From: an uncultured Bacteroidales bacterium
GTDB taxonomy: Bacteria > Bacteroidota > Bacteroidia > Bacteroidales > Bacteroidaceae
Direction of reading: 5' to 3'
Assembly (NCBI GenBank): GCA_902778265.1
Contig: CACYXI010000027.1
Span: 1 to 47,802 of the forward strand
Length of the DNA stretch: 47,802 nucleotides
Part shown: in pieces, positions 16,879 through 38,340 of the stretch
Position numbering within the stretch: position 1 is the stretch's first letter
Layout: each line of letters begins with the position of its first letter
Position numbers and translations under genes: made by a program
Notes under the pieces: model-generated
Told to the model about the DNA's origin: nothing
Seen by the model: the letters and a program-made list of their open reading frames with translations, nothing else
Databases searched by the model: none

Positions 16879-19800
16879 ATGAAGACAAGTAAGATTTCAA
16901 GGTATTTATTGGTACTATTGTGTGCCCTAAGCTCCAATGCAGTTTGGGGACAGAAAACCGTGAGATTATATTTCGAGCGGTACAATAATCATGCAGATGG
17001 AGTCCTCCCTGCATTTTCTGTTGACGGTGATATGCCTAATGATGCTACTGTAAGTGCAGATGGATTTGTATGGGCATCTTCCTATCGAGAGACCTCTTTC
17101 CGCTTTCCAAATTGCGAGGACAGAGTCTTTGCAAAGAAAAACGCCGACAAAAAGAGCACTCACGCTTCATTGACCTTCACCAATTTCAAGTACGAAGTCA
17201 AGAAGATTGAATGGAACAGAATGAATGATATCTTCTCAAATACCATTCTCGATATTTTCAAGACATTTAGCATTTATACCACTACAACCCCTTATACCGG
17301 TACTCCGAAAAGCGGTTCAGAGGGTTCATGGCAGATATTTGGTAAGAGTGCAACATTCGGTGTGGCTACTTTCCCTGGAACAAGTGACAACCTTGAATTG
17401 AAGGGCTTGTCTTCTCTGGTAATGGAAGAGATGAGTGAAGGTGTGTTTACTTCTAATGCGAAAGAAATCAACGACCGTTGCCGTTTCTTCCTTAAGGCTG
17501 GTTCAAAGGAACAGGAGGCAGCAAGAAGAAGTGGTAACCATTTCTTTGCGTTCCAGATCACATACTACGACCCTTCATTGTCTTTCAATGAAAATATGCC
17601 AAGTGAGATGGCCATCGGAAATGAAATAGAGATTGACAAGAAAGGCTCTGAACTGTATTCCATAGCTCACGCGGGTGCTTTCAACTTTAAAAAGACCTAC
17701 GCTACCTCAAATCCAAGAGTAATCACTATCGATGAAAACGGAAAGATGAAGGCCATAGCTACTGGTGATGCAATTATCACTATGACTATTACTGATGGTA
17801 ATGTTACAGCATCAGCAACCAAGACTGTTTCTGTTCGTGACTTTGACAATTCATTATTCCAATATCATAAGAAATCTGGTAATGAAGATAATCTGTATGT
17901 CAGAGAGATGGATCATAATGATGGAGATTATAAGGTTTTAGACAAAACTGCAAATGGATTCAAATTGCTGTCAAGTGATTCAAGAAAATTCAGGGCTGGA
18001 TTATTACCGTTCAGCTTTAGCGTTGATGCACCAAAATATACAAAAGTAACACCTACATGGAATTTCAATATCAAGTTGTCAAGAAATGACGATGGCATTT
18101 GGGATTATTGGTATTCTCATGCAGAACTTCTGTATATTCCAGAAACGGCTGTACTTGATAATGTAAAATTGAACACAACTGATAATTCTGGAAATCTTTC
18201 AGAATACAGTTTTTGTAAAACCAAGGGAACAACATCCAAATCTTACAGTAGAGAAATAGATAATTCTAACAATGCAAGCAAAACCACAAACAAACTGCAA
18301 TTTGCTGCATTGGCTTATACTCGTAATACAACACTTACAGAGCAGCAGGTAGAGACTTCCTTCTCATACACCACAAGCTACGCCTACGTTTACCACTCTA
18401 CCGTTTCCTTTGCAAAGGATTCAGAAGCATGCCCTTATACAATGCCAACCGCTAAGGCAATCAATTCTGAAACACAGGACAAGCATTTGCCTCGTGTTAA
18501 TGATGTGCAGGGCTATACATTCCTTGGCTGGAGCACTCAGAAAGGCGGTACCGTAGTATATGAAAACGGTGCAGAGTTTAATCCTTATGATGAGGTTAAC
18601 GGTGGTGGTAAAGGCCCTGTAACTTTATATCCAGTCTGGGAGCCTAATTCTTATTCTGTGACACTTAACCACAATTATGGTTCTAACGAAGAGGAATTTA
18701 TAACCGTATATTACAACGAGGATATGCCAACCATAACTCCTCCAACAAGAGAAGGTTATATCTTCAGAGGCTATTATGAAGGTCAGACTTATGACCAGGA
18801 TAACGACTGGACTGATAAGTACTATAATGCTGATGGTACAAGTGCTAAAAAGTGGGACAAGACCAATAACGCCACACTCTATGCTCATTGGGAAGCAAAG
18901 ACATACACTCTTAACTTCCACACCTGTGGCGGTAGATTGAGTGATAATGTAGGAATTCGACCAGAAGAGGGGCAATTTGAGACCTTCCCTACATCAGAAA
19001 ACAATACTAAGGTTAGTGTCAATGTGATGTATAACTCACCTTACGGAGACAGATTCTGGTGCGAGGAGGTGATAACCATCCGTCCGGGATATAAGTTCAT
19101 GGGCTGGTTCACAAAGGAAACCGGCGGTGAAAAGGTATATTCCGTACAAGATGTGGACTGTTCATTCAATGCAATAGCAGGTACTTTCTGGAGCGAAGAA
19201 GGCACTAATGGTAAATGGATAAAGGATCTGCCAGACGGAAAACTCGACCTCTATGCTCAGTATGAGTGCAAGTTTGAGATCGTGGATGATGGTGAGCGAA
19301 TCAACTTCAAGCCAGGCTATGACATCGCTACAATTGACGTCAACGCTGCTATTGAAGAAGATAACAACGTATATCACGTGGCTCCTATGATCGTCGATAT
19401 TACCGAATATCCTCACTACATACAGCCTGGTGGTATGGTGAACAGTAAGGGCGAGAAATTCGAGGATGGCGTAGAGGCATTCAACGTGACATTGGATGAT
19501 GCACGCGACGAGTCAAAGCTCGCTCCTAACGCTCTCGTCTATCTGTCAGACAAGTCTGACCTCTATACTGATGCTAAGAATGTGGTTATGATGAAGAGTG
19601 AGCAATGTCTCAACCTTGTAGTTACCGACAGAGCTCCTATCAAGATTCCTTATGCTTTCAAGGCTAACAAGGCTTTATACGAGCGCAACAAGAACTACTC
19701 AAGCGAGGATGCTGCCGTAGCACAGGCTGCTAACTCTAAGTGGGGTACTCTCTGCTTGCCTTATCCTATAAAGAACAACAGCAACAACGTGAGGTTCTAT

Positions 19801-20367
19801 AAGCTGGCTGAATTCAGAAACAACTACATGCACTTCACACCTATGGCAGATGCTGTCATCCCTGCCAATACACCGGTTCTCTACAAGCGTATAGAGGGTG
19901 AAGGTTCTGATGTTAAGATTGAAGAGGCAGGCGTAGATGTTCCGATGAACACGTCATATTCCACAAATTCTGGCAGTTCATTAGACTCTTGGCAGTTCAT
20001 TGGTACGCTAACCACTAAGATATTCTGTGGTAAGGACTATGCCAAGGCTCTTCCTGCCGGTGCTGAGAAGATGAACGGCACAAAGGAGATCTACTATTTC
20101 AAGCAGGATAAGTTCACTCATCTCAAGAATACGGGTAAGGTGACTATGCTTCCATATCGTGCATACTTCACTACTACGGAGTCTAATGCAAAGGTGGCAG
20201 CCTTCTCTCTCATAGCAATTGATGAAGAGGGTGCTACCGACATCACCAACCTCATTGACAATGATGCCGAGGGTGACGGTAAAATCTACGATCTCAACGG
20301 TCGCAGAGTGATGCAGCCGGTAAGCGGTCGCCTCTACATTGTAGATGGTAAGAAGAAAGTATATTAA
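16879..20367 (+). CDS. large secreted protein with Big2-like and Listeria-Bacteroides (InlB B-type) repeats
   Basis: This 1162-residue protein has a signal peptide (residues 1-24, ending AVWG). Residues about 240-320 resemble a bacterial Ig-like (Big2) domain (NPRVITIDENGKMKAIATGDAIITMTI). Residues about 545-830 hold Listeria-Bacteroides repeats with 'GYtF.GWst..gG......Y.vW' units: GYTFLGWSTQKGG, GYIFRGYYEGQ, GYKFMGWFTKETGG. A C-terminal region shared with the 1625-residue protein begins near RAPIKIPYAF and includes WGTLCLPYPI, VIPANTPVLY and WQFIG. The extreme end, GKIYDLNGRRVMQPVSGRLYIVDGKKKVY, is a short sorting-like tail seen on exported Bacteroidales proteins. A surface or secreted role is likely; the ligand is unknown. 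The small acidic gene follows after 20 bases. Confidence 0.8.
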   Translation: MKTSKISRYLLVLLCALSSNAVWGQKTVRLYFERYNNHADGVLPAFSVDGDMPNDATVSADGFVWASSYRETSFRFPNCEDRVFAKKNADKKSTHASLTFTNFKYEVKKIEWNRMNDIFSNTILDIFKTFSIYTTTTPYTGTPKSGSEGSWQIFGKSATFGVATFPGTSDNLELKGLSSLVMEEMSEGVFTSNAKEINDRCRFFLKAGSKEQEAARRSGNHFFAFQITYYDPSLSFNENMPSEMAIGNEIEIDKKGSELYSIAHAGAFNFKKTYATSNPRVITIDENGKMKAIATGDAIITMTITDGNVTASATKTVSVRDFDNSLFQYHKKSGNEDNLYVREMDHNDGDYKVLDKTANGFKLLSSDSRKFRAGLLPFSFSVDAPKYTKVTPTWNFNIKLSRNDDGIWDYWYSHAELLYIPETAVLDNVKLNTTDNSGNLSEYSFCKTKGTTSKSYSREIDNSNNASKTTNKLQFAALAYTRNTTLTEQQVETSFSYTTSYAYVYHSTVSFAKDSEACPYTMPTAKAINSETQDKHLPRVNDVQGYTFLGWSTQKGGTVVYENGAEFNPYDEVNGGGKGPVTLYPVWEPNSYSVTLNHNYGSNEEEFITVYYNEDMPTITPPTREGYIFRGYYEGQTYDQDNDWTDKYYNADGTSAKKWDKTNNATLYAHWEAKTYTLNFHTCGGRLSDNVGIRPEEGQFETFPTSENNTKVSVNVMYNSPYGDRFWCEEVITIRPGYKFMGWFTKETGGEKVYSVQDVDCSFNAIAGTFWSEEGTNGKWIKDLPDGKLDLYAQYECKFEIVDDGERINFKPGYDIATIDVNAAIEEDNNVYHVAPMIVDITEYPHYIQPGGMVNSKGEKFEDGVEAFNVTLDDARDESKLAPNALVYLSDKSDLYTDAKNVVMMKSEQCLNLVVTDRAPIKIPYAFKANKALYERNKNYSSEDAAVAQAANSKWGTLCLPYPIKNNSNNVRFYKLAEFRNNYMHFTPMADAVIPANTPVLYKRIEGEGSDVKIEEAGVDVPMNTSYSTNSGSSLDSWQFIGTLTTKIFCGKDYAKALPAGAEKMNGTKEIYYFKQDKFTHLKNTGKVTMLPYRAYFTTTESNAKVAAFSLIAIDEEGATDITNLIDNDAEGDGKIYDLNGRRVMQPVSGRLYIVDGKKKVY

Positions 20368-20387
20368 AAAAAGATATTCAATTAAAG

Positions 20388-20585
20388 ATGTATTTTAGGA
20401 AAGTTTACAATGCCCCAATAGCAGAGAGATTTGCGATTGAAGAGGATTGTCGTTTGCTCGAGAACTCTTTCAAACAGGAAGAAGGATCAGAAGAGGATTG
20501 GGGTGAGGCAAAGCCAATAACAGGTGGCATCACCTTAGAGGACGACAATGAAAATATGAATTCAAGCCAGATATGGCATGATTAA
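20388..20585 (+). CDS. small acidic protein, partner of the preceding surface protein (family member 1)
   Basis: 65 residues, no signal peptide. The start is basic with a Y..P motif (FRKVYNAPIAERFAIEED), the centre reads RLLENSFKQEEGSEEDWGEA, and the end is acidic with Trp (IWHD). The central block is almost identical to that of the gene at 28066, with 50 identical bases (20460-20509 = 28171-28220). It follows the surface-protein gene by 20 bases and is closed by a terminator, so the two form an operon. I do not recognise a domain. Short proteins of this general shape occur beside surface proteins in other Prevotella genomes as unnamed hypotheticals. The role could be export partner, regulator or peptide precursor. 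Confidence 0.7.
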   Translation: MYFRKVYNAPIAERFAIEEDCRLLENSFKQEEGSEEDWGEAKPITGGITLEDDNENMNSSQIWHD

Positions 20586-20906: not shown

Positions 20907-20956
20907 TGCACTATGTAAGTGCAGAAATATAGAAAAATATGCACTGTTACAGTGCA
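20907..20956 (+). promoter_or_regulatory. twin palindromic operators upstream of the AAA ATPase gene
   Basis: Two 17-bp sites, TGCACT-N5-AGTGCA, at 20907-20923 and 20940-20956, with centres 33 bases apart (about three helical turns). The second occupies the place of the -33 element of the promoter whose -7 box is at 20964, so a bound repressor would block transcription. Confidence 0.65.
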
Positions 20957-20963
20957 AAATTTG

Positions 20964-20971
20964 TATCTTTG
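20964..20971 (+). promoter_or_regulatory. -7 box of the AAA ATPase gene
   Basis: TATCTTTG, 23 bases before the ATG at 20994. The -33 region overlaps the second operator. Confidence 0.65.
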
Positions 20972-20993
20972 CAACCAAATAAACAAAAAAATT

Positions 20994-22169
20994 ATGGAAC
21001 AACTGATAGCAAATTACAGAAGACTCTTACAATTGACAGAGAGTAGATTTCATAGGTATATGTACGACAAGGTGAACTGGAATGGTCGTCTTGTTGGTAT
21101 CGTTGGTGCCAGAGGTGTAGGTAAGACTACAATGATTTTGCAACATATCAAGGAAAAAATGGATGTAAATCGCTGTCTGTATGTTAATGCGGAGGATTTC
21201 TATTTTGCTTCACATAAGTTAGTGGACTTGGCCGATGAGTTCACAAAAATGGGTGGAGAATATCTTTATATTGATGAGATACACAGATACGATGGATGGT
21301 CAAGGGAATTAAAGCTTATGTACGACTATCATCCTGAATTAAAGATAGTATTCTCTGGCAGCTCAATAATAGATATCAACAAGGGTGTTAAGGCAGATCT
21401 CTCGCGTAGAGCCGTGAAATATACGATGTACGGTCTGTCATTTAGGGAGTATCTGGAACTATTTGAGGGTATAAAGAGCAAGGTCTATACGCTTGATGAG
21501 GTGTTAGAGCATAAAGTGGAGATGGATACTGATTTCCGACCACTAATGTATTTCCGTCGTTATTTGGAGAAAGGCTACTATCCATTTGCCTTAGAGGATG
21601 ATTATGGAGAGAAGCTTCTTAACATAGTGACAAAGACGTTGGAAACAGATATTCCTGAGTATGCCAATATGAATGTTTCGACAGGTCGTAAGCTGAAGCG
21701 TCTGATGGCTGTGATAGCAGAGAGTGTACCTTTCAAGCCTAATATGGTAACTCTTGCCGAGGTGTTAGGAATATCACGAAACAATGTAGCAGACTATCTG
21801 TTGTATATCGAGGAAGCAGGACTTATTATTCAGTTACGTGATCAGACAGGTGGTGTACGCTCTATTGGCAAGGTGGATAAGGTCTATTTAGAGAATACGA
21901 ACTTGATATACTCGTTAACCAAGAAGGATCGGGTGGAAATTGGTAATGTTAGGGAAACGTTCTTCATGAATCAGCTACGTGTAGTGGATGATCCTATCAC
22001 TTCACCTGTATCAGATTTCTTAGTAGGTGACAGGACCTTTGAGGTAGGTGGTCGTAACAAGAAACAAAAACAAATTCGAGATATAAAAAAGGCGTATGTA
22101 GTGAAAGATGATATTGAATACGGAGCCTTAAATGTTATCCCTTTGTGGATGTTCGGACTGCTGTATTAG
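20994..22169 (+). CDS. AAA ATPase with C-terminal DUF4143-type domain
   Basis: The 391-residue protein starts at the ATG at 20994; the longer open frame would begin upstream of the promoter. Walker A is GARGVGKTT (residues 38-46). Walker B is YLYIDEIH (Asp94, Glu95). A sensor-type FSGSSII and ADLSRRAVKYTMYGLSFREYLEL follow, and the C-terminal part holds the winged-helix/nuclease-like DUF4143 region (LKRLMAVIAESVPFKPNMVTLAEVLGISRNNVADYLLYIEEAGLI, FEVGGRNKKQKQI). The family is widespread and common in host-associated Bacteroidales; its function is not settled. The FEVGG..K segment resembles the restriction-like fold of the family. It is a single gene with its own operators. Confidence 0.88.
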   Translation: MEQLIANYRRLLQLTESRFHRYMYDKVNWNGRLVGIVGARGVGKTTMILQHIKEKMDVNRCLYVNAEDFYFASHKLVDLADEFTKMGGEYLYIDEIHRYDGWSRELKLMYDYHPELKIVFSGSSIIDINKGVKADLSRRAVKYTMYGLSFREYLELFEGIKSKVYTLDEVLEHKVEMDTDFRPLMYFRRYLEKGYYPFALEDDYGEKLLNIVTKTLETDIPEYANMNVSTGRKLKRLMAVIAESVPFKPNMVTLAEVLGISRNNVADYLLYIEEAGLIIQLRDQTGGVRSIGKVDKVYLENTNLIYSLTKKDRVEIGNVRETFFMNQLRVVDDPITSPVSDFLVGDRTFEVGGRNKKQKQIRDIKKAYVVKDDIEYGALNVIPLWMFGLLY

Positions 22170-22425
22170 TTCATATTCTATTTCGTGGGATGACAAATTC
22201 AATAGAAAATAGCAATTAGAAATAAGGGGAAATCTGTGTACCTACACGCGGGTAATTTAAGTGATTTGGGGTCAGATAATTGGGAGAGAGGGGAGAGGGA
22301 AAGAAGGAGTGAAAATTGTATTGTGGAAATAGCAAATTGTGATATTAATAAGTTAAAAAGAGGGGATTTTCGGGGAGAAACGCAAATTTTTTTAATAAAT
22401 TTTATGATTATTCGGAAAAAATTCG
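22170..22425. other. intergenic stretch without a supported gene
   Basis: A/G-rich sequence after the AAA ATPase gene. The short open frames here have no recognisable content, and I see no clear terminator. Confidence 0.4.
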
Positions 22426-22433
22426 TACCTTTG
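22426..22433 (+). promoter_or_regulatory. -7 box before the second surface-protein gene
   Basis: TACCTTTG, with only a TTTA/TTTT-like -33 region about 20 bases upstream. It predicts a leader of about 360 bases that contains copy 5 of the AGGTT/AACCT element. Confidence 0.55.
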
Positions 22434-22485
22434 CAACAAATAAAAATTCACTTATTCAAATTTCAAAAAATTAAAAGGTAAAACT

Positions 22486-22712
22486 CCACCAACCGAAGAC
22501 TTCAGAGGGTATAAAGTCAGAGGTTAGAAGGTATCCTCAAGGTTAGGAGGTTAGGAGGTTATAAGGTTAAAGGTTAGAAGGTCTGAAACAATTGAGAATT
22601 AATATCTTAAATTCTTAATATATTAATCTCAAAACAGTCTGACCTAAAAACCATAAAACCTGAAAACCTAAGAACCCAAAGACCCCAGCAACTTGAGCTA
22701 TGCGAGAGTTGG
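22486..22712 (+). repeat. AGGTT/AACCT leader element, copy 5, with terminal hairpin
   Basis: The longest copy: AGGTT-type words at 22520-22585, an A/T core with repeated TTAAT words (22590-22635), AACCT-type words at 22640-22680, and a hairpin CAACTT-N11-GAGTTG (22689-22711). Compared with copy 4 one base pair of the hairpin stem has become a U-G wobble, so pairing is kept. Confidence 0.65.
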
Positions 22713-22800: not shown

Positions 22801-25800
22801 ATGTTGACAGATATGAGAAAAGGTAAGTTATTAAGGTATTTAATAGCCATGATAATGGCTTTAAGTACATCGGCTAATGTCTTCGCACAGGAGCGAGTAT
22901 TGAAGATATACTTCAATGAGACAAGTGACACTGCCACTGGTCCTCGAATCTTTGTGACAGACGATCATCCTAATAGTAGTTATGATATTCCTTTTGGTAC
23001 GAAAGTATCAGCACAAGGTTCTACATGGGCTACTGGTGCCAGATGGTTTGGTCTTCTTCAGCAAACAGTAACGGACAGAATTCTTGCTAATTATGAAGAT
23101 TCCGAACATAAGTCTTCACACTTAAAGATATCTTTTATGGATGAGTATGGAAATAGTACTTTTCCGTATGAGGTGAATAATATTCAATGGAATATTATGA
23201 ATGATCTTTTTTCTGGTACCATATTTGGAGATGGTTTTGATAACCTTCAAATCAGTACTGTATGTACTCCAGCAAAAGGTCAGGCAAGTTCATATACAGA
23301 AGAACATTGGGAATTGAATCCTTTTGCTCGAAATTCTTCTTTTACACAGTCTGATTTCCCTTCTACTTCTGGTTTGGTTCTTAATGGATTGAAATCCTTT
23401 GAGCTTAGAGAAAAAAACTTTTTTAAAATAAAAATACCTATTATTGGATGGACTCTTTATTCTGAACAAACAGAACTTAACGACAGATGTCGCGAGTTTA
23501 TCAAGGCTGGTTGGAATGGATCAAATACAGAGCCTAAAGTCAGAAATAGTGATGGTGAACTAATAGACATAGAGGGTGATGATAGCTATTGGGCATTCAA
23601 GGTAAAGTTTACTTTGCCAGATATCCGTATGCGCTTTATGGATGGTAGAAGTACCAATGTAATAAAAACAGATGAGGAGAATGTTGAGCTTTATGGAACA
23701 ATTATAGCTCATGCAGGAGCTGTATCTCCAACTGTTAATCCACAAGATCCTGATGACTTCCATTATGAGTTTACAGAATCAAGCAATGGTGAGATTATAA
23801 AATTTGAAGAAGTAAATTATCTTGGTACGAAATACAAAACAGGTAAAATTGTAGCAATTAACCATCCTGGTACTGTGGATGTAACCGTACATTTGATGCG
23901 TGGTGATAGAGAGGTAAGCTCATATACAGAAACCATCTATGTACGTGATTATGAAATAGCTACAAATGCACCTGAAATTGCTATTGCTTTTGTTGATGGC
24001 AATAAGGGTTATGATGTTACCGTTGGTGATAATAATGCTCAGATTCAGGGCGTTATTACAAAGGCTGGTAAAGACAATAAGGGTAATACTGTTAGTACTA
24101 CTACTTCCACCAATAATACTAATGGTTATCATTTTGAATATACATCAGACAATAATGATATCGCCACAATTAACAAAACTACAGGTAAGATCACAGCCAA
24201 GAAGGAAGGTGATGTGAATATTAGTGCTGTCTTGATGAATGGTACAACTCCTATTAGTGAATTTTATAACTATACCCTCCATGTATTTGCACAGCATGAG
24301 GGATTGGAGTTCAGACGCATAAATACTTATAAGTATAGTGATAACGGTAATACTAATTATAGTGGTTGGAAAGTTACTGCAACAAACAGTCAATCTTATG
24401 AATGGCAATCAAATAACTTGCTAAGGGTTAATACTTCTATTAACAAAGCAGGTGATACTTATGGTGTGAATGATTGGAAACAAATAGCAAGTTTCTCTAC
24501 TGGTGAGTTCAGCTACTGGCGTGCAATATGTCAGGAGGTAGCGTTTGATGTCTATGTACCTAAATATACAAAGTCCATAACTCAGTATTCATTTGCTGGT
24601 AATGCGGCTATCGGTAGCAAAAAAACACATTCAACAGGAAGGTATTCTAATTCTACTGGAAATTGCAAATATGGCTTTGAGATTAATTATTTAAATCAAA
24701 CATGGATTAATGGTAAGCCTCAAAATGTGCAAATAACTTTAGAACAAGCTAATACGAAACTTATAGATCGTATGTGGGATACCGATGCAGGTATCGTTAC
24801 TGAGACTTTTGCAAGAAGTGGTGCATCAAGTTATACAAGTAATGTTGGTGCCGCAAATGCTCTTAATAGGGAAATAAATAATGTAGATGCATCAAATAGT
24901 AATGAGCATAAACATTATACTGTTTATTTTGCGGTAATGGCTTATCTTTGGAATAACGAAAGCTATCCTGGAGATGTATCTATAGGATTCAAGGGTACTC
25001 CTGAATATACATATTATACCTACATTACTTATCACAAGAATGATGGAACAGGTGAACTCTTGCGCGCTACAGAGGAATATACAACAACGAGCAAGACTGA
25101 GAGCATACAACTGTTCCAGAATCCTACAAGTACAGAAACTGCTGGTCTGACACGTACAGGATACACATTCTTGGGTTGGAGCACTAATCCTGATGCCACT
25201 ACTCCTGACTATAATCTGCATGAAGATTTCATTCTCTATGATAATGTAGATGGTGGTGGTCGCGGTCCTGTAAATCTCTATGCCGTTTGGAGAGCAAACA
25301 CCTATATTGTAGAGCTTAGAAGTAGTTCAAATACAACTAATTACAATGTACATGGCTATGTACAAGCTACTTATGGTGCTGCTATGCCATCTGTAGATAT
25401 AGAAGGTAATACTCTTGCAATTCCAACTGTACCTCAGGGCTACATCTTCAGGGGATATGAAAGAAAAGAGAATTCAACAAGGACTACCTATTATGACCAG
25501 AATCTTAATAGCGCTCATGTATGGGATAGAACCAATGATATGGATTATATTTACGTAATATTGGTTGGTAAGCAGTCAACAGTACATCTTGATCATCAAG
25601 GAGGTACCACTACTGGCATAAGTGAATTTACTGCTACTTATGGAAGTAATATGCCAACAAGTGGCTTGAAAGCTCCAACAAAAACAGGATATACCTTTGG
25701 AGGTTATTATAGCGCAATCAACGGTGAAGGTACTCAGTACTATAAAACAGATATGACTGGTGCAAGAACCTGGAATATTGATGAGCAAGAGGTTACTCTC

Positions 25801-27678
25801 TATGCAAAGTGGAATCCTAGAAAATTCCTTGTAACTCTTGATGATAATGATGGTACGGGTGGTTCTACTTCTGTAACTGCTTATTATGAGCAGCCTATGC
25901 CTCTCGTGGATGATGATGGTGAAGCACTGAAAGTTCCTACTCGTGATGGATATATCTTCCTCGGCTATTCAATTAATAAGGAAGAGAATAATAGTCAATA
26001 TTATTATCAGTTGGATTGGCAGGGAAATATTACAAGTTATAGCACTTGGAATAAGCCAAAAAATGGAAAGCTCTATGCTCAGTGGGAAAAGACCTACAAG
26101 ATAACCTTGGATGCTGATGGAGGTAAGTTTGATGGTAGCGTAGATACTTATGGTACTATTCTTGAAAAGAATGAAGGTTCATTGGTATTGCAGGCTCGAA
26201 CCAACGAGGCTGAGTGTTCTCAGGTATATTGCTCAAATCGTATCAACATCAAGCCTGGCTACAAGTTGCTTGGCTGGTACACGGAGCGTCAGGGCGAGGG
26301 TGATGCCGAGCATCCTGAAAGACCGCATAAGGGAACTTTGGTTTACAGTATAGAGCCAGGTAACAACTTCTCTTATCATTTCTATGCAGTTCCTAATACA
26401 CCAAATGCTTGGAACGCTGATGGTAAGTGGATTGGTACGAGTGATCTTACATTGTATGCTCACTATCAGATTATATTTGATGTGACTGACGATGTAATCA
26501 CATTCACTGATATGACTCCAAAGAACTGCGTATCTGGTGAGGATCTTGCAGAGGCATTTAAGTATGCCAAGGAGCATGGCACCACGAAAGAGGAAATCAA
26601 TACAATCGATATGAGATATCCTGATACTGGTGCGGATGGTCTGAATGGTGAAGGTATAATGGAGGTGTTTGAGAATGCGAAGGCTGAGGCTAACACTATC
26701 ATTTCTCCTAATGCTCTTATCCTCTTCACAAGCACTTACCCAACAAGTAGAAACACTAACGCTGTTACTACTACAGGAGATGGCAGCAAGTGTCAGAATC
26801 TCGTGGTAACTGACAGATACCCAATGAGAATACCTCTTGCATTCGAGGCAGATCAGGCTTCATACGCTCGTGATGCTGGTGTGGTTTCTACTCCTGAAAA
26901 CCCTGATGGAGCTTTTGAACAGGCTAAAGTGTCTTACTGGGGTACTCTCTGCTTGCCTTACCCTATTAGGAATAAAGCAAATGGCGTGAGATACTTCTGG
27001 CTTGAGAGCACAGCCAACAACTACATGGAATTCCAGGAGTTTGCTGATGATGCCGTGATTCCTGCTAACACACCAGTACTTTACAACCGTACTGATGGTG
27101 CTGTAGGCTCACAGATATCCATCGAGGAGTATTACAGGAACGTTCCAATGAACACGACATACGAGGCTGTCACTATTGACTACTCTGATACATTTGATCC
27201 ATTGGAAGGTTACTATCCTAATGAGGTTGCACATGCGTCAATACACGACTGGCAGTTTATCGGTAATCTGAAGATGAGCATCTTCTGTGGTAAGGGCTAT
27301 AGTAAGGATTATAATGGCTTGCCAGCAGGTGCACAGGAAGTGACTGAAGGTAATGTCTTCTACTTCAAGCAGAACACGTTCACTCATCTGCTTCCAAGTA
27401 GAGATATAGACGGAAAGCACTACAAGGCTGGTAGAATGAACCTCTATCCATATCGTGCTTACTTCTACAAGAAGCCAAAGGCTAATGATTCTGGTTCTAA
27501 GATCTCTACATACTCTATCGTTGTAGTAAGTGAGGAAGGTGCTACCGACATCACTAATCTCGTATTCGGCGATGGTGAGGGTGATGGTAAGATCTACGAT
27601 CTGACTGGTGTTCGCGTAATGCAGCCAGTTAAGGGCCGCATCTACATTGTCAATGGTCAGAAGAAGATGTACAAGTAA
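22801..27678 (+). CDS. very large secreted protein with Listeria-Bacteroides repeats
   Basis: 1625 residues with a signal peptide ending ANVFAQ. The ATG at 22801 is used; an ATG at 22813 (MRKGKLL) is equally plausible. The N-terminal 360 residues resemble those of the 1162-residue protein (for example DRCREFIKAG against DRCRFFLKAG, IQWNIMNDLFSGTIF against IEWNRMNDIFSNTIL). Ig-like segments with NNDIATINKTTGKITAKKEGDVNISAVL follow. About five repeats lie around residues 780-1220 (GYTFLGWSTNPDA, GYIFRGYERKEN, GYTFGGYYSAIN, GYIFLGYSINKE, GYKLLGWYTERQ, each closing with a YAxW-type strand). The shared C-terminal region (WGTLCLPYPIRN, VIPANTPVLY) and the tail GKIYDLTGVRVMQPVKGRIYIVNGQKKMYK end the protein. 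The small partner gene lies 388 bases downstream, separated by repeat elements. Confidence 0.8.
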   Translation: MLTDMRKGKLLRYLIAMIMALSTSANVFAQERVLKIYFNETSDTATGPRIFVTDDHPNSSYDIPFGTKVSAQGSTWATGARWFGLLQQTVTDRILANYEDSEHKSSHLKISFMDEYGNSTFPYEVNNIQWNIMNDLFSGTIFGDGFDNLQISTVCTPAKGQASSYTEEHWELNPFARNSSFTQSDFPSTSGLVLNGLKSFELREKNFFKIKIPIIGWTLYSEQTELNDRCREFIKAGWNGSNTEPKVRNSDGELIDIEGDDSYWAFKVKFTLPDIRMRFMDGRSTNVIKTDEENVELYGTIIAHAGAVSPTVNPQDPDDFHYEFTESSNGEIIKFEEVNYLGTKYKTGKIVAINHPGTVDVTVHLMRGDREVSSYTETIYVRDYEIATNAPEIAIAFVDGNKGYDVTVGDNNAQIQGVITKAGKDNKGNTVSTTTSTNNTNGYHFEYTSDNNDIATINKTTGKITAKKEGDVNISAVLMNGTTPISEFYNYTLHVFAQHEGLEFRRINTYKYSDNGNTNYSGWKVTATNSQSYEWQSNNLLRVNTSINKAGDTYGVNDWKQIASFSTGEFSYWRAICQEVAFDVYVPKYTKSITQYSFAGNAAIGSKKTHSTGRYSNSTGNCKYGFEINYLNQTWINGKPQNVQITLEQANTKLIDRMWDTDAGIVTETFARSGASSYTSNVGAANALNREINNVDASNSNEHKHYTVYFAVMAYLWNNESYPGDVSIGFKGTPEYTYYTYITYHKNDGTGELLRATEEYTTTSKTESIQLFQNPTSTETAGLTRTGYTFLGWSTNPDATTPDYNLHEDFILYDNVDGGGRGPVNLYAVWRANTYIVELRSSSNTTNYNVHGYVQATYGAAMPSVDIEGNTLAIPTVPQGYIFRGYERKENSTRTTYYDQNLNSAHVWDRTNDMDYIYVILVGKQSTVHLDHQGGTTTGISEFTATYGSNMPTSGLKAPTKTGYTFGGYYSAINGEGTQYYKTDMTGARTWNIDEQEVTLYAKWNPRKFLVTLDDNDGTGGSTSVTAYYEQPMPLVDDDGEALKVPTRDGYIFLGYSINKEENNSQYYYQLDWQGNITSYSTWNKPKNGKLYAQWEKTYKITLDADGGKFDGSVDTYGTILEKNEGSLVLQARTNEAECSQVYCSNRINIKPGYKLLGWYTERQGEGDAEHPERPHKGTLVYSIEPGNNFSYHFYAVPNTPNAWNADGKWIGTSDLTLYAHYQIIFDVTDDVITFTDMTPKNCVSGEDLAEAFKYAKEHGTTKEEINTIDMRYPDTGADGLNGEGIMEVFENAKAEANTIISPNALILFTSTYPTSRNTNAVTTTGDGSKCQNLVVTDRYPMRIPLAFEADQASYARDAGVVSTPENPDGAFEQAKVSYWGTLCLPYPIRNKANGVRYFWLESTANNYMEFQEFADDAVIPANTPVLYNRTDGAVGSQISIEEYYRNVPMNTTYEAVTIDYSDTFDPLEGYYPNEVAHASIHDWQFIGNLKMSIFCGKGYSKDYNGLPAGAQEVTEGNVFYFKQNTFTHLLPSRDIDGKHYKAGRMNLYPYRAYFYKKPKANDSGSKISTYSIVVVSEEGATDITNLVFGDGEGDGKIYDLTGVRVMQPVKGRIYIVNGQKKMYK

Positions 27679-27723
27679 GGTTCTCTGAAACTATAAGAAG
27701 AAAATAAGTAATGCACAGAATAA

Positions 27724-27900: not shown

Positions 27901-27937
27901 TAAATTTGACTGCTTTTTTTAAAAAGCGCAAAGGCAT

Positions 27938-28065: not shown

Positions 28066-28299
28066 ATGACTAACTATAAAGCATTCATGATAGAAATAGA
28101 AAAAAAGAAAAGGAAATACGTAAGTCCGGTAGCGGAGTCCTTCGCTGTTGAAGAGGACGGGCGATTGCTTGAGAACTCTTTCAAACAGGAAGAAGGATCA
28201 GAAGAGGATTGGGGTGAGGCTCGCCCTATTGTCGGAGACGTCACCTTTGACGATGAGAACACCCATACCTCCAAGGCCGCATCTTTTTGGGAAGAATAA
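28066..28299 (+). CDS. small acidic protein, family member 2
   Basis: 77 residues from the ATG at 28066; an ATG at 28087 (MIEIEKKKRKYVSP) may be the true start, as it gives the same layout as the homologues. Basic start with KYVSPVAESFAVEED, the central block RLLENSFKQEEGSEEDWGEA, then an acidic region and FWEE at the end. No signal peptide or known domain. It belongs with the 1625-residue surface protein, from which it is separated by 388 bases of inserted repeat elements, unlike the 20-23 base gaps in the other two modules. A terminator follows. Confidence 0.65.
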   Translation: MTNYKAFMIEIEKKKRKYVSPVAESFAVEEDGRLLENSFKQEEGSEEDWGEARPIVGDVTFDDENTHTSKAASFWEE

Positions 28300-30680: not shown

Positions 30681-33230
30681 TTATTTAACCAAAACCTTCT
30701 TGCCATTAACGATGTAGATACCGTTTGTTGGGTTGTCAACACGCTGACCCTTGAGGTTGTAGAAAACAGCTTTCTGAGCAGCAGGAGCCTCAATACCCTC
30801 AATGCCGGTAGTCTCTGCCAAGTCAAACTCGATGTCTGCGTCCTTAGAGTTAGAACCAGAGTTCTGAGTAATCTTGATATGACCGATAACAGCCTCAAGC
30901 CATACGCCCGCAGAACCGTTAGCATTAGCTACAGGAGTCCAACGGATCTTGTAGTTGCCTGTGGTATATACATTGAACGTAACAGAGCCCTTTGTAGCCT
31001 GTACGGTAGATACGTTAGTGTTCTTGTTGAGGTTGAGAGAGCACTGGATAATCTGACTACCCACAACAGTACCATCTTCCTTCATCACCTCACACTTCAC
31101 GTATGGAGTGCCAGCCCAAGCAGCAGCGTTGTAGGTGAGAGTGTATGTGCCAGGGAGGAAGCTGAGAGCATATCCCCAACGTGATCCATACTCAGCATAG
31201 TTCTCAGAAGTAGAACTTGTAGTGCTGCGGATATAGAGACCGTAGTTGAACTGTCCGCCCTGAGTGAAGTGGAAGATACGAGGACCAGAAGCAGCCTCAC
31301 CACTTTCTACGAGCTTACCACCATCATAGATAGCCCAACCTGGGTTTACATAGTTAGCCTTACCGAATGCCAATGGGTTGCTCATATAGCGGAGGTTCAC
31401 ATTGCCTATAACAGCCTCAACCCAGTCACCGCCATTGCCGTTAGCATCAGCACATGGAGTGAAGCGCAGACGATAGTTGCCCTTGTTGAGAGCATAGAAG
31501 CTGAGATAACCCTGTGCAGAGCCTGAAGTAGAAGCAGAGGTGTTCTTGTTCAGGTTCTTAGAGCACTTAACGATAGTGCTTGCTATAACGTTGCCAGAAG
31601 GTGTGAATACCTCTGCCTTAACGTAAGGAGTGCCAGACCATGCAGCAGCGTTGAATGTGAGGCAATAGTTACCATAGTTATTGAGAGAAAGCATATTGCC
31701 TGATGTTGTGCCATACTCGATATATCCAGACTGAGAAGCACTCTTCTGACGGATGTAGAAGCCGTACTTGAAATCGCCACCACCTGTGAACTGCATTACG
31801 CGCATACCGAGAGTAGCCTCGCCTGAAGCAGGATATTCACCTGCATCATTGCAAGCCCAGCCAACAGGACGGTCATTACCCTTTGTCCATGCAGGGATGA
31901 GAGAAGAAGAGAGGTCAACATTAACAGAACCGCTGTTGCTTGAACCGCCGTTATTGTTATTATTGTTGTTGTTATTGTTATTAGAACCGCTGTTGTTATT
32001 GTTGTTAGAGCCGTTAGATCTGATAGCATAGTCCTTCTGAGCCCAGAGAGAATACCAATACCAGCAAGCACCTGCACAAGCCTCCCATATACCGTTGAAA
32101 GCAGCCTTAGCCTTACCAGTCTTCAGATACTCAGCAACATCCATATATGTGTCTGTACCAGAGAGAGTCATAGAGATGTTGTCGTAGTAGTCGAGCACAG
32201 CCTTGTAAGCATAGCCAAACTTTGTTGTGCTACCTGTACCCCATGTGCCATAGTTGCCAGTTACCCAAGCTCCGTGCTCGTTGTAGTGGCCGTTGCTGCC
32301 ATTCTGAGGGCTCCAGTCAATCTCAGTAATTACGATAGGCTTGCTTGTAACCACAGGAACTGACTGCTTGAATGAATTGATAGAAGTCTGGTGGTCATGC
32401 TTAGAATCAGAAGTGCTGTACCAATCTGGATAGAAGTGTACTGCATAGCCATAGTTGTTATCCTTTACAGGATACTTGGCATAGTTTCTGTAGTTAGACT
32501 GCCAACCAGTACCAGGAACGAGGATGATACCTGTGTAACCATTCTTACGAATAACGTCGATGATAGGTTGGAAGAAGTCGCGCATAGCCGTCTCTGTGTC
32601 CTGACCATACTGATTGAGGAGCTTAACAGGCTCGTTGGCAAGCTCAATCATCACCGTACCAGAGTTCTTGATTACGTTAGGATTCTTAGTAACGATGTCC
32701 CAAACGGTCTTGAGATAGTTCTGATAGGCATCACCTACCTTGATAGTCTGAGGACATACGCCTGGTGGGCGCATAATAACGTACATGCCGTGGTTGAGAG
32801 CCTTTTGTGCGATAGGCCAATAGACAGACTGCATGTACTTCTCCAAGCGATAGCTTGAGAAACGGCTGATGTCTGCCTCACCACCACCTTGGGTATAAGA
32901 CTTGTTAGGGTCGTTGGTCCAACATGGATCAAGGTGCAGACGGAACAGGTTACAGTATGCACCCTGCTTTGTGTCTGTAATGCCAGTGAAAATCTTCTCA
33001 AAGTAGTTGAGACACGCGCTTACCGTACCGTCATTACACGCATTACCCCAACGATAGCTGTTGAAGTAAGGGCTTGGTGTGTCCATAACACCGTGAAGCA
33101 CTACTTTGTTACCAGAAGGATCCCTAAACTGATTCCCGCTGACGTGAAGTGGCTCTACCACTCCGAACTGTGCGAATGATGTTGCTGCTCCTGATAGCAT
33201 GAACATCGCTGCAAGGAAAAATTTTTTCAT
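30681..33230 (-). CDS. GH5-family glycanase (endoglucanase-like) with Asn-rich linker and two beta-sandwich repeats
   Basis: The 849-residue secreted enzyme has a signal peptide (1-20, ending SFA). The GH5-type barrel spans about 22-400: acid/base Glu200 in MIELANEP and nucleophile Glu303 in PIVITEIDWSP, with HGVMDTPSP, NLFRLHLDPCW and GYAVHFYPDW as supporting motifs. An Asn/Gly/Ser linker (about 405-435) follows, then two homologous about 150-residue modules (about 437-590 and 600-770), each with 'Y.LtfNAAAW.GTPYVK.EV' and 'GNY+.R.TP.AnaNG..g.W.EAVIG', probably carbohydrate-binding. The tail VFYNLKGQRVDNPTNGIYIVNGKKVLVK is sorting-like. Likely a secreted cellulase or related beta-glucanase. 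Single gene with its own promoter and terminator. Confidence 0.82.
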   Translation of the reverse strand: MKKFFLAAMFMLSGAATSFAQFGVVEPLHVSGNQFRDPSGNKVVLHGVMDTPSPYFNSYRWGNACNDGTVSACLNYFEKIFTGITDTKQGAYCNLFRLHLDPCWTNDPNKSYTQGGGEADISRFSSYRLEKYMQSVYWPIAQKALNHGMYVIMRPPGVCPQTIKVGDAYQNYLKTVWDIVTKNPNVIKNSGTVMIELANEPVKLLNQYGQDTETAMRDFFQPIIDVIRKNGYTGIILVPGTGWQSNYRNYAKYPVKDNNYGYAVHFYPDWYSTSDSKHDHQTSINSFKQSVPVVTSKPIVITEIDWSPQNGSNGHYNEHGAWVTGNYGTWGTGSTTKFGYAYKAVLDYYDNISMTLSGTDTYMDVAEYLKTGKAKAAFNGIWEACAGACWYWYSLWAQKDYAIRSNGSNNNNNSGSNNNNNNNNNNNGGSSNSGSVNVDLSSSLIPAWTKGNDRPVGWACNDAGEYPASGEATLGMRVMQFTGGGDFKYGFYIRQKSASQSGYIEYGTTSGNMLSLNNYGNYCLTFNAAAWSGTPYVKAEVFTPSGNVIASTIVKCSKNLNKNTSASTSGSAQGYLSFYALNKGNYRLRFTPCADANGNGGDWVEAVIGNVNLRYMSNPLAFGKANYVNPGWAIYDGGKLVESGEAASGPRIFHFTQGGQFNYGLYIRSTTSSTSENYAEYGSRWGYALSFLPGTYTLTYNAAAWAGTPYVKCEVMKEDGTVVGSQIIQCSLNLNKNTNVSTVQATKGSVTFNVYTTGNYKIRWTPVANANGSAGVWLEAVIGHIKITQNSGSNSKDADIEFDLAETTGIEGIEAPAAQKAVFYNLKGQRVDNPTNGIYIVNGKKVLVK
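31926..32018 (-). repeat. AAC/AAT codon microsatellite in the GH5 linker
   Basis: A run of Asn codons broken by Gly/Ser codons, appearing as TTG/TTA triplets on the plus strand. Length changes by whole triplets would vary the linker without breaking the frame. Confidence 0.7.
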
Positions 33231-34606: not shown

Positions 34607-34753
34607 TTCGTGCTCAAAAGAATAAATAACCGAAAATAAGTAAGTAGTCAAATTTATTGATATACATGAATATACATAATTATATTCTTTTGAACGTTTA
34701 TGCTCCTAATTAATTGCTGTGCAGAACCACGAAGCTTGTACAACAAACAATTC

Positions 34754-34846: not shown

Positions 34847-34865
34847 AAGTAAATGCACAGAATAA

Positions 34866-35044
34866 TTTTTATAATCAAGAATTAGAGAATTTGAGAAAAT
34901 TGAATTAATGCGAAAGAGAGAATTTTGCTACTTGCGTAGCATTGAGAATGGCCGTGATTTACAGGAGCGTAAGCGACCTTTCTCTAATTCTCCTAAATTT
35001 CAAAAGAAAAAATTCTCTTATTCTCTAATTCTTGATTAGAAAAT
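34866..35044. mobile_element. 177-bp terminal-inverted-repeat element, copy 2
   Basis: Begins TTTTTATAATCAAGAATTAG and ends in the inverted sequence with small changes (CTAATTCTTGATTAGAAAA). The central AGGAGCGTAAGCGAC and GCTAC..GTAGC hairpin are shared with copy 1, as are the flanks AATGCACAGAATAA and AAATTAAATTTGA. From 35045 to 35382 no gene is seen. Confidence 0.7.
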
Positions 35045-35382
35045 TAAATTTGATCACTTAGTTATCTATCTGCGTGGTTTGATATTATGCCTTCCATATA
35101 ACTAATTTCTTTGTTATTTCTTACTTTTTACTTCACACAGACGCATGATTCATTGCTGTGTTCAGAAAAATATAAAGTACAGGTTGGAAGAATTTGAAAA
35201 ACGTAAAAAGGGGATTACAAGCAACTTACATCTTACCTTCCAATGAAGAACTTTAGATTAAGTGTAAGGAATGAAAAACATAATGAAAGTGTTAAAAGCG
35301 AAATGATTTTAGACGTTTTTTCGCAATTTCTCTTCAAAAATCCATATTTTACTATCAGGTCTTAATAAAAAGGAGTGAAAAA

Positions 35383-35414: not shown

Positions 35415-35507
35415 CCACGAAATATCCCCTAAATCTTGCGCTCTGATTTTATCAGAGGGAGCAGACATTAGCAGATACAACCGAATAATAACTAAAAAAT
35501 AAAGAAT

Positions 35508-38135
35508 ATGAAACATTTAAAAACGCTTATTACCCTATTCCTGTTGGCAATAGGAACAAGTGCCTCCTGGGCATTTGAGGATTTTGAGATTGATCTGACA
35601 CAAGAGACTCCTGTACTTCCTACGGGAGTGGAAATGATTCCTTATCTCAATAATTATACGCAGTATCCTAATACAAGCGATCTCAGTCATGGCTGGCATT
35701 GCTATGCTATCCAGTTTGATGTAGATGGTCCTGTAGATATTATTGTAGGTGGTTGTCAGCATCAGGGTGGATACTACGCTTCTGTTGTAGAAGCTAATAA
35801 CAAATCGCATGAAATAGAGAATAGTGTGTGCGGACAAAACTACACATACGAATATAAGGGTGGAGCTCAAACGTTGAAGCTTTACTGCGGACAGTATTGC
35901 CCATACATCAAGGTAGCAAAGCATGAAGCTCTTGTTGCTACTAACAATTTCACTATTGATCTTACGAAGGAAACAGTAGAACTTCCTACTGGAGTAAACC
36001 AGATTGATAATCCAGTAAAGCCTGGTGGTGCAAGGTTAAATGGACCAACACATGGCTGGCAATGGTATGCTATCGAGTTCTATGTAGATGCCAATGTGAA
36101 TATTACTATTGATGGATGCGACTATCAGAATGGATATACTGGCTATCTCGCAGATGCTAATGGCAACAAGATTGCAGGCTCAGACTTCAATAACACAACA
36201 TGTTTTGAGACATATACCTACAAATATGAAGGTGAACCACAGAAGCTGAAACTCTATTGCGGTCAGTTTTGCTCAAGCATAGCAGTAACAGAGGCAAAAC
36301 CTATTTCTAACCTAAATATCAATCTTGTTACTAAAACAGCTCCTGTTCTTCCTGTAGGTGTTACTCAAATCAGATACCCATTCTATGGATATAATGTGGA
36401 CTACCGTAAGGGTGATAGTCATGGAACATCATGGTATGCTGTTCAGTTTGATGTAAATGGTCCTGTCAAGATTACACTTGGTGGATGTGAATTTAATGGT
36501 GAAGAATTAGAAAAATGGAATCAAGGTGCAGTGAAAAATGTCACTACTGGAGAGACTCTTTGCACAACCTTTGAAACTTTAGCAGCAGGATGCTCTGGTA
36601 GTGGTTCTTTTGTATATCCTGGCGGACCTGCAACTCTTAAAGTATATTGTGGCGAGTATTGCCCTTATCTTAAAGTGGAAGAAATTGTGGAACCTGCTCA
36701 TATTCATTCTTTCGCTTCTGCATGGGAAAAGACAGATACTCACCACTATCATGCTTGTACAGAGACAGGTTGTGACATTACCGATTACAGCGCCGTTTCT
36801 GACGACGTAGCTGCTTATGTGGCTTATGGTGAACATGACTACGCAACAATAGTATTAGCTGCCAATGGAGCATATTATACATGCCAGTCTTGTGGCTATG
36901 TAAACACTTCACGTAAGACTGATGCTGATGCAGCGGTTGCAGTTATAAACCTTATTAACGCTATTGGTGAAGTTGAATATAGCACGGAATGCAACGCAAA
37001 GATACAGGCAGCTCTCAATGCCTATAATGCTTTAACTGAGGCACAAAAGGCACTCGTAACGAACTATGACATTCTCACGGAAGCTCAGGCAACCTACAAG
37101 GGCTTAACTCCTGTCCTCGTAGTAGCTCGTACAGCTATGTGGGATTGGGCAAATGCCCAGACAACAGATCAGATATATGAAGAGTCAAATATTGATCATA
37201 CAAATGGTATTATACACTCTGAAGTTCCTGGTGTGAATCTTGAAATAAATGCAGTATCAGGTCTGTTCAGAATGGAGGATGCAGGTAACATTAATGCAGT
37301 CGTTCTTCCAGCGGGCTGTACAATCAAAGTTCCTATTCGTAGAATGGGAGATAAAGTAACCGTTGTATGTGGTGATGATCAGAACTTCTACACAATAGGC
37401 GAAGACAAGACTCCATCTACGGGTGATGAAATGATCTATGTTGCTTCTCAGAAAGACTTTGAGGTAGGTTATGTTGCAATTACAGCAACAGCAGATTCAC
37501 GTTTCTTCAGCATCGAGGTTGAACAGAAACAATTCAAGTCTGTTCTTCCAATGATAACCCTTAATGCTGGCGGTTGGGCTTCATTCACATCACTTATCAA
37601 GGATCAGGTGGTTACAGTGCCTGCTGGCGCAACAGCATACGTTGCTATTGCTGCAGATAATGAGAATGTAACTCTTAAAAAGGTGACTCGATTCACCTAT
37701 GGTGAGGGCGTATTCATCTTTGGAGACCCAAATGCTCAACTTTACGCAAACACCGTCAAAGGAGTTTCAGACGTACCTAATGTGGCTGGCAACGTAACAA
37801 AAGGCTGTACCAAGGATATTGTAGTGTATTCATCAAGTCACGCTTATGTTGTTGCAACCAACAATAAGACCAAGAAGGCTGGATTCTACAAGGTTAGTAC
37901 ATCAATCACAGTTCCTGCAGGTAGGGCTTTCCTCTATGCTCCGAAGGCAGAGGCTAAGGAACTTAATATCGTATTTGAGGATGGTGAGGAAGCTACCGGT
38001 ATTGAGAGCGTTCTTGCTGTTGAAGATTCAGAGAATAAAGTTCCTACAGTGTTCTATAACCTCTCTGGTCAGGTAGTAGGTAAGGACTATAAGGGTATTG
38101 TTATCGGTAACGATGGCAAGAAGTATGTGAAGTAA
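35508..38135 (+). CDS. secreted protein with three about 120-residue Cys-containing repeats
   Basis: 875 residues with a signal peptide ending ASWA. Residues about 23-400 are three homologous repeats. Each starts like 'idLt.eT..LPtGV.qI.YP', contains HGW.wYAIqFdVdg.V.I.igGC, and ends L+LYCGQYCpYIkV with a CG.yC pair. A His/Cys-rich segment follows (HHYHACTETGCDITDY, TCQSCGYVNTS), similar to short CxxCG modules of surface proteins, then a helical FIVAR-like region (INLINAIGEVEY..LTEAQKALVTNYDILTEA) and beta-rich domains. The tail VFYNLSGQVVGKDYKGIVIGNDGKKYVK is sorting-like. I know no function for the repeats. The small acidic gene follows after 22 bases. Confidence 0.78.
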   Translation: MKHLKTLITLFLLAIGTSASWAFEDFEIDLTQETPVLPTGVEMIPYLNNYTQYPNTSDLSHGWHCYAIQFDVDGPVDIIVGGCQHQGGYYASVVEANNKSHEIENSVCGQNYTYEYKGGAQTLKLYCGQYCPYIKVAKHEALVATNNFTIDLTKETVELPTGVNQIDNPVKPGGARLNGPTHGWQWYAIEFYVDANVNITIDGCDYQNGYTGYLADANGNKIAGSDFNNTTCFETYTYKYEGEPQKLKLYCGQFCSSIAVTEAKPISNLNINLVTKTAPVLPVGVTQIRYPFYGYNVDYRKGDSHGTSWYAVQFDVNGPVKITLGGCEFNGEELEKWNQGAVKNVTTGETLCTTFETLAAGCSGSGSFVYPGGPATLKVYCGEYCPYLKVEEIVEPAHIHSFASAWEKTDTHHYHACTETGCDITDYSAVSDDVAAYVAYGEHDYATIVLAANGAYYTCQSCGYVNTSRKTDADAAVAVINLINAIGEVEYSTECNAKIQAALNAYNALTEAQKALVTNYDILTEAQATYKGLTPVLVVARTAMWDWANAQTTDQIYEESNIDHTNGIIHSEVPGVNLEINAVSGLFRMEDAGNINAVVLPAGCTIKVPIRRMGDKVTVVCGDDQNFYTIGEDKTPSTGDEMIYVASQKDFEVGYVAITATADSRFFSIEVEQKQFKSVLPMITLNAGGWASFTSLIKDQVVTVPAGATAYVAIAADNENVTLKKVTRFTYGEGVFIFGDPNAQLYANTVKGVSDVPNVAGNVTKGCTKDIVVYSSSHAYVVATNNKTKKAGFYKVSTSITVPAGRAFLYAPKAEAKELNIVFEDGEEATGIESVLAVEDSENKVPTVFYNLSGQVVGKDYKGIVIGNDGKKYVK

Positions 38136-38157
38136 ACTTGAATATTAACTCTCTATA

Positions 38158-38340
38158 ATGATTAAGTATATGAACAAGAAATATATTAAACCTTCAATCG
38201 TTGTTGAAAAGGCTCTGCTCACAGCCCTGATGGAAACAGCTTCCGTTCTGGGTGAAATCAGCAAAGATGAGAAGGGTAACTTCACCATCAATTCCAAGGA
38301 AGGCAATTTGTGGTTTGACGAAGATGATGATGAGGAGTAA
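38158..38340 (+). CDS. small acidic protein, family member 3
   Basis: 60 residues; the ATG at 38170 (MNKKYIKPSIVVEK) is the more likely start by comparison. Basic start with a KKYIKP motif, a short hydrophobic stretch (ALLTALMETASVLGE), then GNLWFDEDDDEE. It lacks the RLLENSF block of the other two but keeps the order basic/Y..P, hydrophobic, Trp plus acidic end, and the same position 22 bases after a large surface-protein gene. No known domain. Confidence 0.65.
   Translation: MIKYMNKKYIKPSIVVEKALLTALMETASVLGEISKDEKGNFTINSKEGNLWFDEDDDEE

Follow-up and report, generated by a model that had tools for sequence, protein, structure and literature searches.

Three gene pairs in one contig

A 47,802-nucleotide stretch of DNA from an uncultured Bacteroidales bacterium (contig CACYXI010000027.1 of assembly GCA_902778265.1, C27 in our numbering; here "the window") carries three gene pairs, or modules, in which a large gene for a predicted surface protein is followed on the same strand by a small gene (Table 1). 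The large proteins are referred to here as cargo of the type IX secretion system (T9SS), after the signal predicted at their ends, and the small ones as small partners. The assembly that holds the window measures 4.96 Mb, with a completeness of 86.6% and a contamination of 4.7%. A preliminary description of this DNA had listed the three pairs, with large proteins of 1162, 1625 and 875 aa and small ones of 60-77 aa, and all six open reading frames (ORFs) are found where it placed them. The gaps of 20 and 22 bases between cargo and small gene in modules 1 and 3 are likewise borne out, as are the small-protein ends IWHD, FWEE and LWFDEDDDEE and, judged by eye, the Sec-type signal peptides of all three large proteins. 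The repeat elements said to be inserted in module 2 correspond to an imperfect palindrome of about 200 nt and a 33-nt repeat within a gap of 387 bases. In cargo 1 and cargo 2 (P0001 and P0003), a Gln follows the likely signal-peptide cut, as in the Q-rule described for Bacteroidetes (PMC10653852).

Modules 1 and 2 are duplicates of one another (repeats D1, D2 and D4), and their small partners are close relatives, with 60% identity over residues 15-75. Module 3 has a different cargo and a distant partner, which is linked to the other two through the family motif alone.

Table 1. Features of the three modules and of a fourth cargo gene in the window (positions in nucleotides).
Feature	Positions	Strand	Size	Evidence and remarks
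Cargo 1 (P0001)	16879-20367	+	1162 aa	Signal peptide (by eye), List_Bact_rpt repeats, Big_2-like domain below cut-off
Cargo 1, putative short T9SS C-terminal signal (TDI...YDLNGRRV...GRLYIVDGKKKVY)	20236-20364	+		Tail-profile seed row; PMC11969387 motifs
Small partner 1 (P0002)	20388-20585	+	65 aa	Family profile; purifying selection against small partner 2
Cargo 2 (P0003)	22801-27678	+	1625 aa	Signal peptide (by eye), Big_2 and List_Bact_rpt repeats
Cargo 2, putative short T9SS C-terminal signal	27544-27675	+		Tail-profile seed row
Imperfect palindrome between cargo 2 and small partner 2	27710-27909		~200 nt	Second copy at 34852-35053
Small partner 2 (P0004)	28066-28299	+	77 aa	Family profile; purifying selection against small partner 1
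Fourth T9SS-tailed cargo, GH5 cellulase-like	30681-33230	-		Tail profile; no small partner within 900 bp
Cargo 3 (P0005)	35508-38135	+	875 aa	Signal peptide (by eye); no Pfam match to E 1
Cargo 3, putative short T9SS C-terminal signal (ATGI...FYNLSGQ...GIVIGNDGKKYVK)	37995-38129	+		Tail-profile seed row
Small partner 3 (P0006)	38158-38340	+	60 aa	Family profile

A predicted type IX secretion signal on the large proteins

Each of the three cargo proteins finishes with a tail of some 45 residues that, judged from its motifs, is a short T9SS C-terminal domain (CTD), a point absent from the preliminary description. Compared by eye, the tails match the short CTD of P. intermedia motif for motif. 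As PMC11969387 gives it, that domain occupies the last 45-60 residues and consists of a T/GI cleavage motif, a Motif B with Tyr..Gly and a basic residue, a Motif D of GxY or GxN followed by Ile, and a basic Motif E. Motif D deviates in the window cargo, where it reads GRLY, GRIY and GIV. The tail of cargo 1 is predicted to be structured and follows a low-confidence linker. A tail profile (A3) was built from seven tails; the window cargo score E 2.0e-20, 2.8e-20 and 1.5e-15 with it, all three being among its seed rows. It returns 82 tail places at E 1 in the window genome. The SprA/Sov translocon gene (TIGR04189) is present in that genome, where it scores 2600 bits, and was found in each of 20 genomes tried.

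The established models for the type A sorting domain of the T9SS are not reached by most tails, nor by any of the three window cargo proteins: among the 70 large partner proteins collected here, a set that is partial for many loci, TIGR04183 was matched at E 0.1 by five and PF18962 at 0.001 by two. In hhalign, 16 tails set against six longer CTDs aligned over 30 columns with a probability of 89. This counts as weak support, since the two sets, selected by eye, are partly of the same kind, two of the six CTDs coming from partner proteins and two lying below the PF18962 cut-off. CTD structures are the subject of PMC11285876. At two loci in other genomes (L111, L187), small partners follow a C-terminal tail of another kind (GQLYILRGDKMYDATGRLVK-like).

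A family of small proteins

The small proteins form one family, each consisting of a shared head and a variable segment, and their genes adjoin those of T9SS cargo or, in some other lineages, those of surface lipoproteins. The layout is KKxYxxP, spaced hydrophobic residues, LLxxS near residue 24 and then a variable, mostly acidic end. Across 74 family proteins (L011, C34 and the members from genomes G088 and G318 left out), Y and P are fixed by the search and preceded by basic residues, while hydrophobic residues occur at frequencies of 0.82 at P+2, 0.76 at P+4, 0.89 at P+7 and 0.93 at P+13. Ser is most frequent at P+16 (40 proteins) and P+17 (29). An LLxxS-like motif, loosely defined and about 16 residues after the Pro, is found in 72 of the 74, against a mean of 14 and a maximum of 24 in shuffled sequences. 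The last 15 residues are net negative in 67 and contain Trp in 45, and in 33 the later part contains [AS][KR]...[WFY], a motif that shuffled sequences show in 10 on average and in 18 at most. The shared layout of the preliminary description stands as to its Y..P start and acidic end, whereas its hydrophobic middle holds only in part: when the most hydrophobic 15 residues of each protein are taken, the median of their Kyte-Doolittle means is 0.72, and five proteins lie above 1.6. The LLxxS-like motif is the more constant feature. Conservation of the very start is in part a search artefact, because 34 members begin with MKKKYIKP by construction; the hydrophobic spacing and LLxxS were not part of the DNA search pattern.

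To judge from their substitutions, the small genes are protein-coding and under purifying selection. In three paralogue pairs dN/dS is about 0.21, 0.14 and 0.20, and reading the codons out of frame removes the synonymous excess. A further pair, L143/L185, differs by just two changes, both replacements, and is uninformative. No stable monomer fold is predicted for the small protein: the AlphaFold monomer model of small partner 3 has a pLDDT of 68.8 and a pTM of 0.24. Pipelines built on Pfam or NCBIfam cannot name the family, since it reaches no model of either; the lowest E is 0.0091 (DUF6929, 3/44).

The division into head and remainder is sharpest in two genomes of another family. Pairwise identity is 0.94 in the head against 0.25 in the rest in G318 (10 pairs, five of six loci), and 0.85 against 0.25 in G088 (28 pairs, eight loci), L107 being outside these statistics; the comparison is biased, as paralogues were found through the head.

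Pairing with T9SS cargo

Single-sequence searches found few relatives. Of four further matches in the window genome, three lie 3-117 bp downstream of a tail protein, and L007 falls within a longer ORF. Elsewhere, L010 likewise follows a tail protein; L011 (G012) does not, having an RNase-like gene about 700 bp upstream. A family profile of eight sequences gave 21 places at E 10 in the window genome, to which a pattern search added C81. Twenty of these 22 sequence-found genes lie downstream of a T9SS-tailed gene. C34 stands directly upstream of one, with start and stop overlapping, and C81 stands 1 bp after a protein without a tail (309 aa as read). Three more genes (C40, C87 and C231:3542), which came to light when the DNA after tail genes was inspected, are left out of this count; with them, 23 of the 25 listed small genes are downstream of a tail gene. 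The 13 matches that the family-wide MKKxYxxP search described below gives in the window genome were counted and not placed. Counted in reverse, 21 of 74 tail genes have a same-strand family ORF downstream, which exceeds chance: the opposite strand gives 1, and shuffled sequences give 0.84 on average. Of the 82 tail matches, 76 were examined (the six others being weak), 75 had a stop and 74 a readable downstream region. Where cargo and small gene adjoin, the spacing is close: of 71 gaps (L143, L185 and L203 left out), 56 are at most 50 bp, 24 are 9-17 bp and five are overlaps. Two tandem small partner genes follow one cargo gene at C231 of the window genome (L063). At L178, the cargo gene is split into two ORFs in the record, with the small gene 14 bp downstream and its frame open.

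The pairing extends to other genera. A DNA pattern for MKKKYIKP, run over 84,980 species, returned 53 stretches, of which 34 have a family-like ORF and were taken as Bacteroidales; these include L159 and L180 (one record named just "uncultured bacterium"), and one (L164) lies at a locus edge, leaving 33 to be judged. The matches come from Prevotella, Hoylesella, Xylanibacter, Palleniella, Leyella and Paraprevotella, among others. In 28 of the 33, the protein ahead of the small gene fits a loose four-motif T9SS pattern at its C-terminus, and in 23 of these the gap is 9-39 bp. The remaining five comprise L187, after a protein with a different tail; L184, after a glycoside hydrolase family 3 (GH3) protein with a signal peptide; L182, after a serpin fragment whose N-terminus is outside the locus; and L143 and L185, where the small gene is directly upstream of a lipoprotein. 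Three Bacteroidota matches were dropped as false: L163 (a SusD-like lipoprotein), L144 (a 15-aa ORF) and L165 (the end of a longer ORF). Also left out was L138, where a 39-aa ORF lies 13 bp beyond a tailless protein of 1141 aa or more.

In genus g191, a looser pattern gave 18 loci and 14 family ORFs, 12 of them after tailed cargo, L200 before a lipoprotein and L203 beside neither (L205, cut by the locus end, is counted; L206, of 34 aa, is not). None of 12 loci from the looser pattern in genus g26 fits the family. A further profile (A4), run over 295 Bacteroidales genomes, reached eight at E 0.01, the window genome included, and a stricter DNA pattern reached six. Outside the window genome the profile found 20 loci: three after a tail protein (L106, L111, L112), 14 in genus g56, of which 13 are upstream of a lipoprotein (L130 being unreadable), and three with other or no neighbours (L108, L110, L114). 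In some lineages, then, the gene order is reversed and the small gene comes ahead of the surface-protein gene, which the preliminary description did not mention. The members in G088 and G318 (L107-L132) are upstream of SCS-type lipoproteins and have near-identical heads and unrelated remainders. Just upstream of several of them are genes that, by eye, resemble PD-(D/E)XK transposases.

We regard the pairing of cargo and small gene as real and general, with hardly any doubt. The preliminary description had read repeated pairing as a functional link, and the genomic side of that reading holds: in three samples gathered independently of gene context (the 22, the 33 and the 14 above), the small gene mostly follows a T9SS-tailed gene, and homologues mostly without a surface-protein neighbour were not what was found. 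The functional link is something we infer from sequence. Of the three roles that the preliminary description offered (an export or anchoring partner, a regulator of the large protein, or a peptide precursor), it preferred none, and all three are still candidates.

Passengers and the export route

T9SS-type tails are present on most of the large partner proteins, and the bodies that precede them are diverse. Pfam matches among the 70 partner proteins are to BspA-type leucine-rich repeats (LRR; 8), Big_2 (4), InlB-like repeats (4 and 3), CBM26 (2) and ricin-type lectin (2), with one each to C10 peptidase, GH3, serpin, pectinesterase, fimbrillin and GLUG. What they share is the tail, often with a region W.T...PF...RAY before it, which is predicted to be beta-rich and has no usable PDB match. 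Since the bodies are unrelated and the tail is common, what links most pairs is the export route. An immunity protein or toxin partner was set aside as a candidate, one partner family standing beside LRR, Ig-like, lectin, peptidase and glycosidase neighbours.

The pairing could also be a relic of descent, with an ancestral cassette duplicated along with its modules and no present function behind it. P0001/P0003 and P0002/P0004 were co-duplicated, and several partners in the window genome stand on related cargo (51-66% identity; L013, L051, L053, L054), as such a history would have it. The passengers next to small partners, however, comprise at least eight types by their Pfam domains, both gene orders occur, and the small genes are under purifying selection, so that mere hitchhiking is improbable.

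The main rival to the reading favoured below is a cargo-specific adaptor or chaperone, whose head would dock on a shared export component while the variable acidic end holds the cargo, in the way that small acidic chaperones, which are stable folded dimers, hold type III effectors. One small gene per cargo gene, the close spacing and the overlaps fit this role, as do unrelated passengers joined mainly by a T9SS tail, and two of the 33 judged neighbours that lack such a tail (the GH3 protein and the serpin fragment) would suit a more general helper. Yet the cargo has its own signal peptide, many tail genes have no partner, and no stable fold is predicted in a model of the monomer. Such an adaptor is possible, if on balance doubtful.

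Strict dependence on the T9SS was considered and dropped. Among 298 genomes of the family, MKKxYxxP has 802 matches in the 187 SprA-positive genomes, against 93 for reversed-pattern controls, and 186 in the 111 SprA-negative ones, against 94. In genus g26, however, the count is equally low with SprA (1.62, 13 genomes) and without it (1.64, 58 genomes), so that abundance follows clade, and a T9SS requirement is not claimed. SprA was found in 70 of 72 genomes drawn from the window genus, 13 of 71 from g26 and 0 of 38 from g27, two other genera of its family. Together with the relatives named in the MKKKYIKP matches, this pattern suggests that the window may come from a Prevotella-like organism. 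G348, a SprA-negative genome with 12 matches, may have a missed SprA (two of five candidates scored). Genus g26 is otherwise SprA-negative, yet 13 of its 71 genomes carry SprA/Sov.

Neighbouring genes and the role of the small protein

The neighbourhood of the small genes was surveyed in 125 ORFs at 34 named loci. LytTR is the commonest Pfam domain among the 25 of 136 families listed, though it occurs in four ORFs, and CX3CX2C occurs in two, both housekeeping activase-like by eye. The LytTR genes are one pointer to a cytoplasmic operon regulator, for instance a feedback factor that senses cargo output by docking on a DNA-binding protein. The small protein has no visible signal peptide, its short linear motif with YxxP would be suited to docking, and its gene adjoins or overlaps the cargo gene; but no regulator among those 25 listed families is common to most pairs, and the gene order is reversed in some lineages. 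A regulator is unlikely, and a peptide or an adaptor suits better, because of the conserved head, the variable end, the missing fold, the close spacing, the occurrence of both gene orders and the unrelated passengers.

The reading we tentatively prefer takes the small protein for the precursor of a leader-guided peptide, produced together with its cargo. Its YxxP and hydrophobic spacing resemble the leaders of ribosomally synthesized and post-translationally modified peptides (RiPPs). The precursor is favoured over the adaptor because of the split into head and variable part and because the same start is found on Cys-rich, precursor-like ORFs in other phyla (L145, L152, L167). The first 24-25 residues (KKxYxxP, alternating hydrophobics, LLxxS) would be a common recognition segment, bound by a shared factor encoded elsewhere. 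The small gene, probably co-transcribed, would be translated straight after the cargo, and its product might be cut or modified near LLxxS. The remainder (about 13-50 residues) differs from gene to gene, is acidic in most cases and has an aromatic residue towards its end; it would then be released or presented with the cargo, on which it may have an effect.

Several observations pull the other way. A one-to-one pairing of small and cargo genes is uncommon among peptide natural products, and most T9SS-tailed cargo has no partner, 53 of 74 tail genes in the window genome being alone. No processing or modifying enzyme was seen beside the small genes among the surveyed ORFs, a search that did not extend to distant genes. 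The variable part is conserved between close paralogues, and the head/rest split is weak in the window genome (0.30 against 0.22, the rest against shuffled 0.18). It is also weak in genus g191 (0.34 against 0.22). Our preference is kept tentative because no enzyme was seen nearby and because the split is weak in the window genome.

Were the precursor reading to hold, Prevotella-lineage bacteria might release a dedicated leader-guided peptide with many T9SS cargo, one trans-acting system handling many peptides per genome and tying peptide output to surface display, a picture that we consider speculative and rather unlikely as a whole. The cargo of the T9SS rank among the major surface proteins of Prevotella and its relatives, and the small partner could be a missing piece of cargo export, of attachment to the surface or of signalling.

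MKKKYIKP also heads Cys-containing, precursor-like ORFs in WOR-3, Bacillota, Clostridia and other bacteria (L145, L152, L167, L162, L138). At L145, a gene that by eye is radical S-adenosylmethionine/SPASM-like lies 879 bp upstream of the Cys-rich ORF, and at L162 the ORF overlaps the stop of a 1388-aa ORF.

Other features of the window

Nested inverted repeats rich in ACGTACAC-like motifs (16144-16469) lie upstream of module 1. Between modules 1 and 2, a tRNA-Gln (ttg) gene at 22408-22499 (-) adjoins an AAA_14 ATPase gene (20919-22169). Genes for polysaccharide use (GH35/GH42-like and GH43) occupy 5334-11941 (-), and two overlapping ORFs at 8889-9995 and 9953-11941 look like pieces of a hybrid two-component regulator. 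An Acido-Lenti-1 RNA match at 12170-12214 (+) scores 37.5 bits, with a cut-off of 37.

Comparison with known systems

T9SS cargo with short CTDs are already known; the small partner family encoded beside them appears to be new. The paper on the P. intermedia short CTD deals with cargo only, and its main text does not contain "downstream", "operon" or "small protein" (PMC11969387). In a literature search judged by title and the start of the abstract, with subscription journals and preprints outside its scope, a small partner family beside T9SS cargo was not found, and strings such as MKKKYIKP had no match. As far as PMC10352776 sets out its mining of Bacteroidales RiPPs, the leaders are of the GG-motif kind, with peptidase-containing ATP-binding transporters (PCATs), and a YxxP family is absent.

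Curated RiPP precursor models give no match near significance (best E 0.026), with sub-threshold matches to RaS-RiPP models in 3 of 25 (best 0.072) and to lasso models in 2 of 25 (best 0.22). Unlike lasso and RaS-RiPP precursors, the small genes reach no model cut-off, have no maturase in view nearby and each stand beside a surface-protein gene; like those with YxxP leaders, they combine KKxYxxP, spaced hydrophobics and a head of about 25 residues with a variable remainder. Prochlorosin-type precursors are dispersed, several per genome, with nearly identical leaders and hypervariable remainders. They differ from the present family in that the small genes are paired with secreted proteins and no modifying enzyme was identified, but the members in G088 and G318 resemble them.

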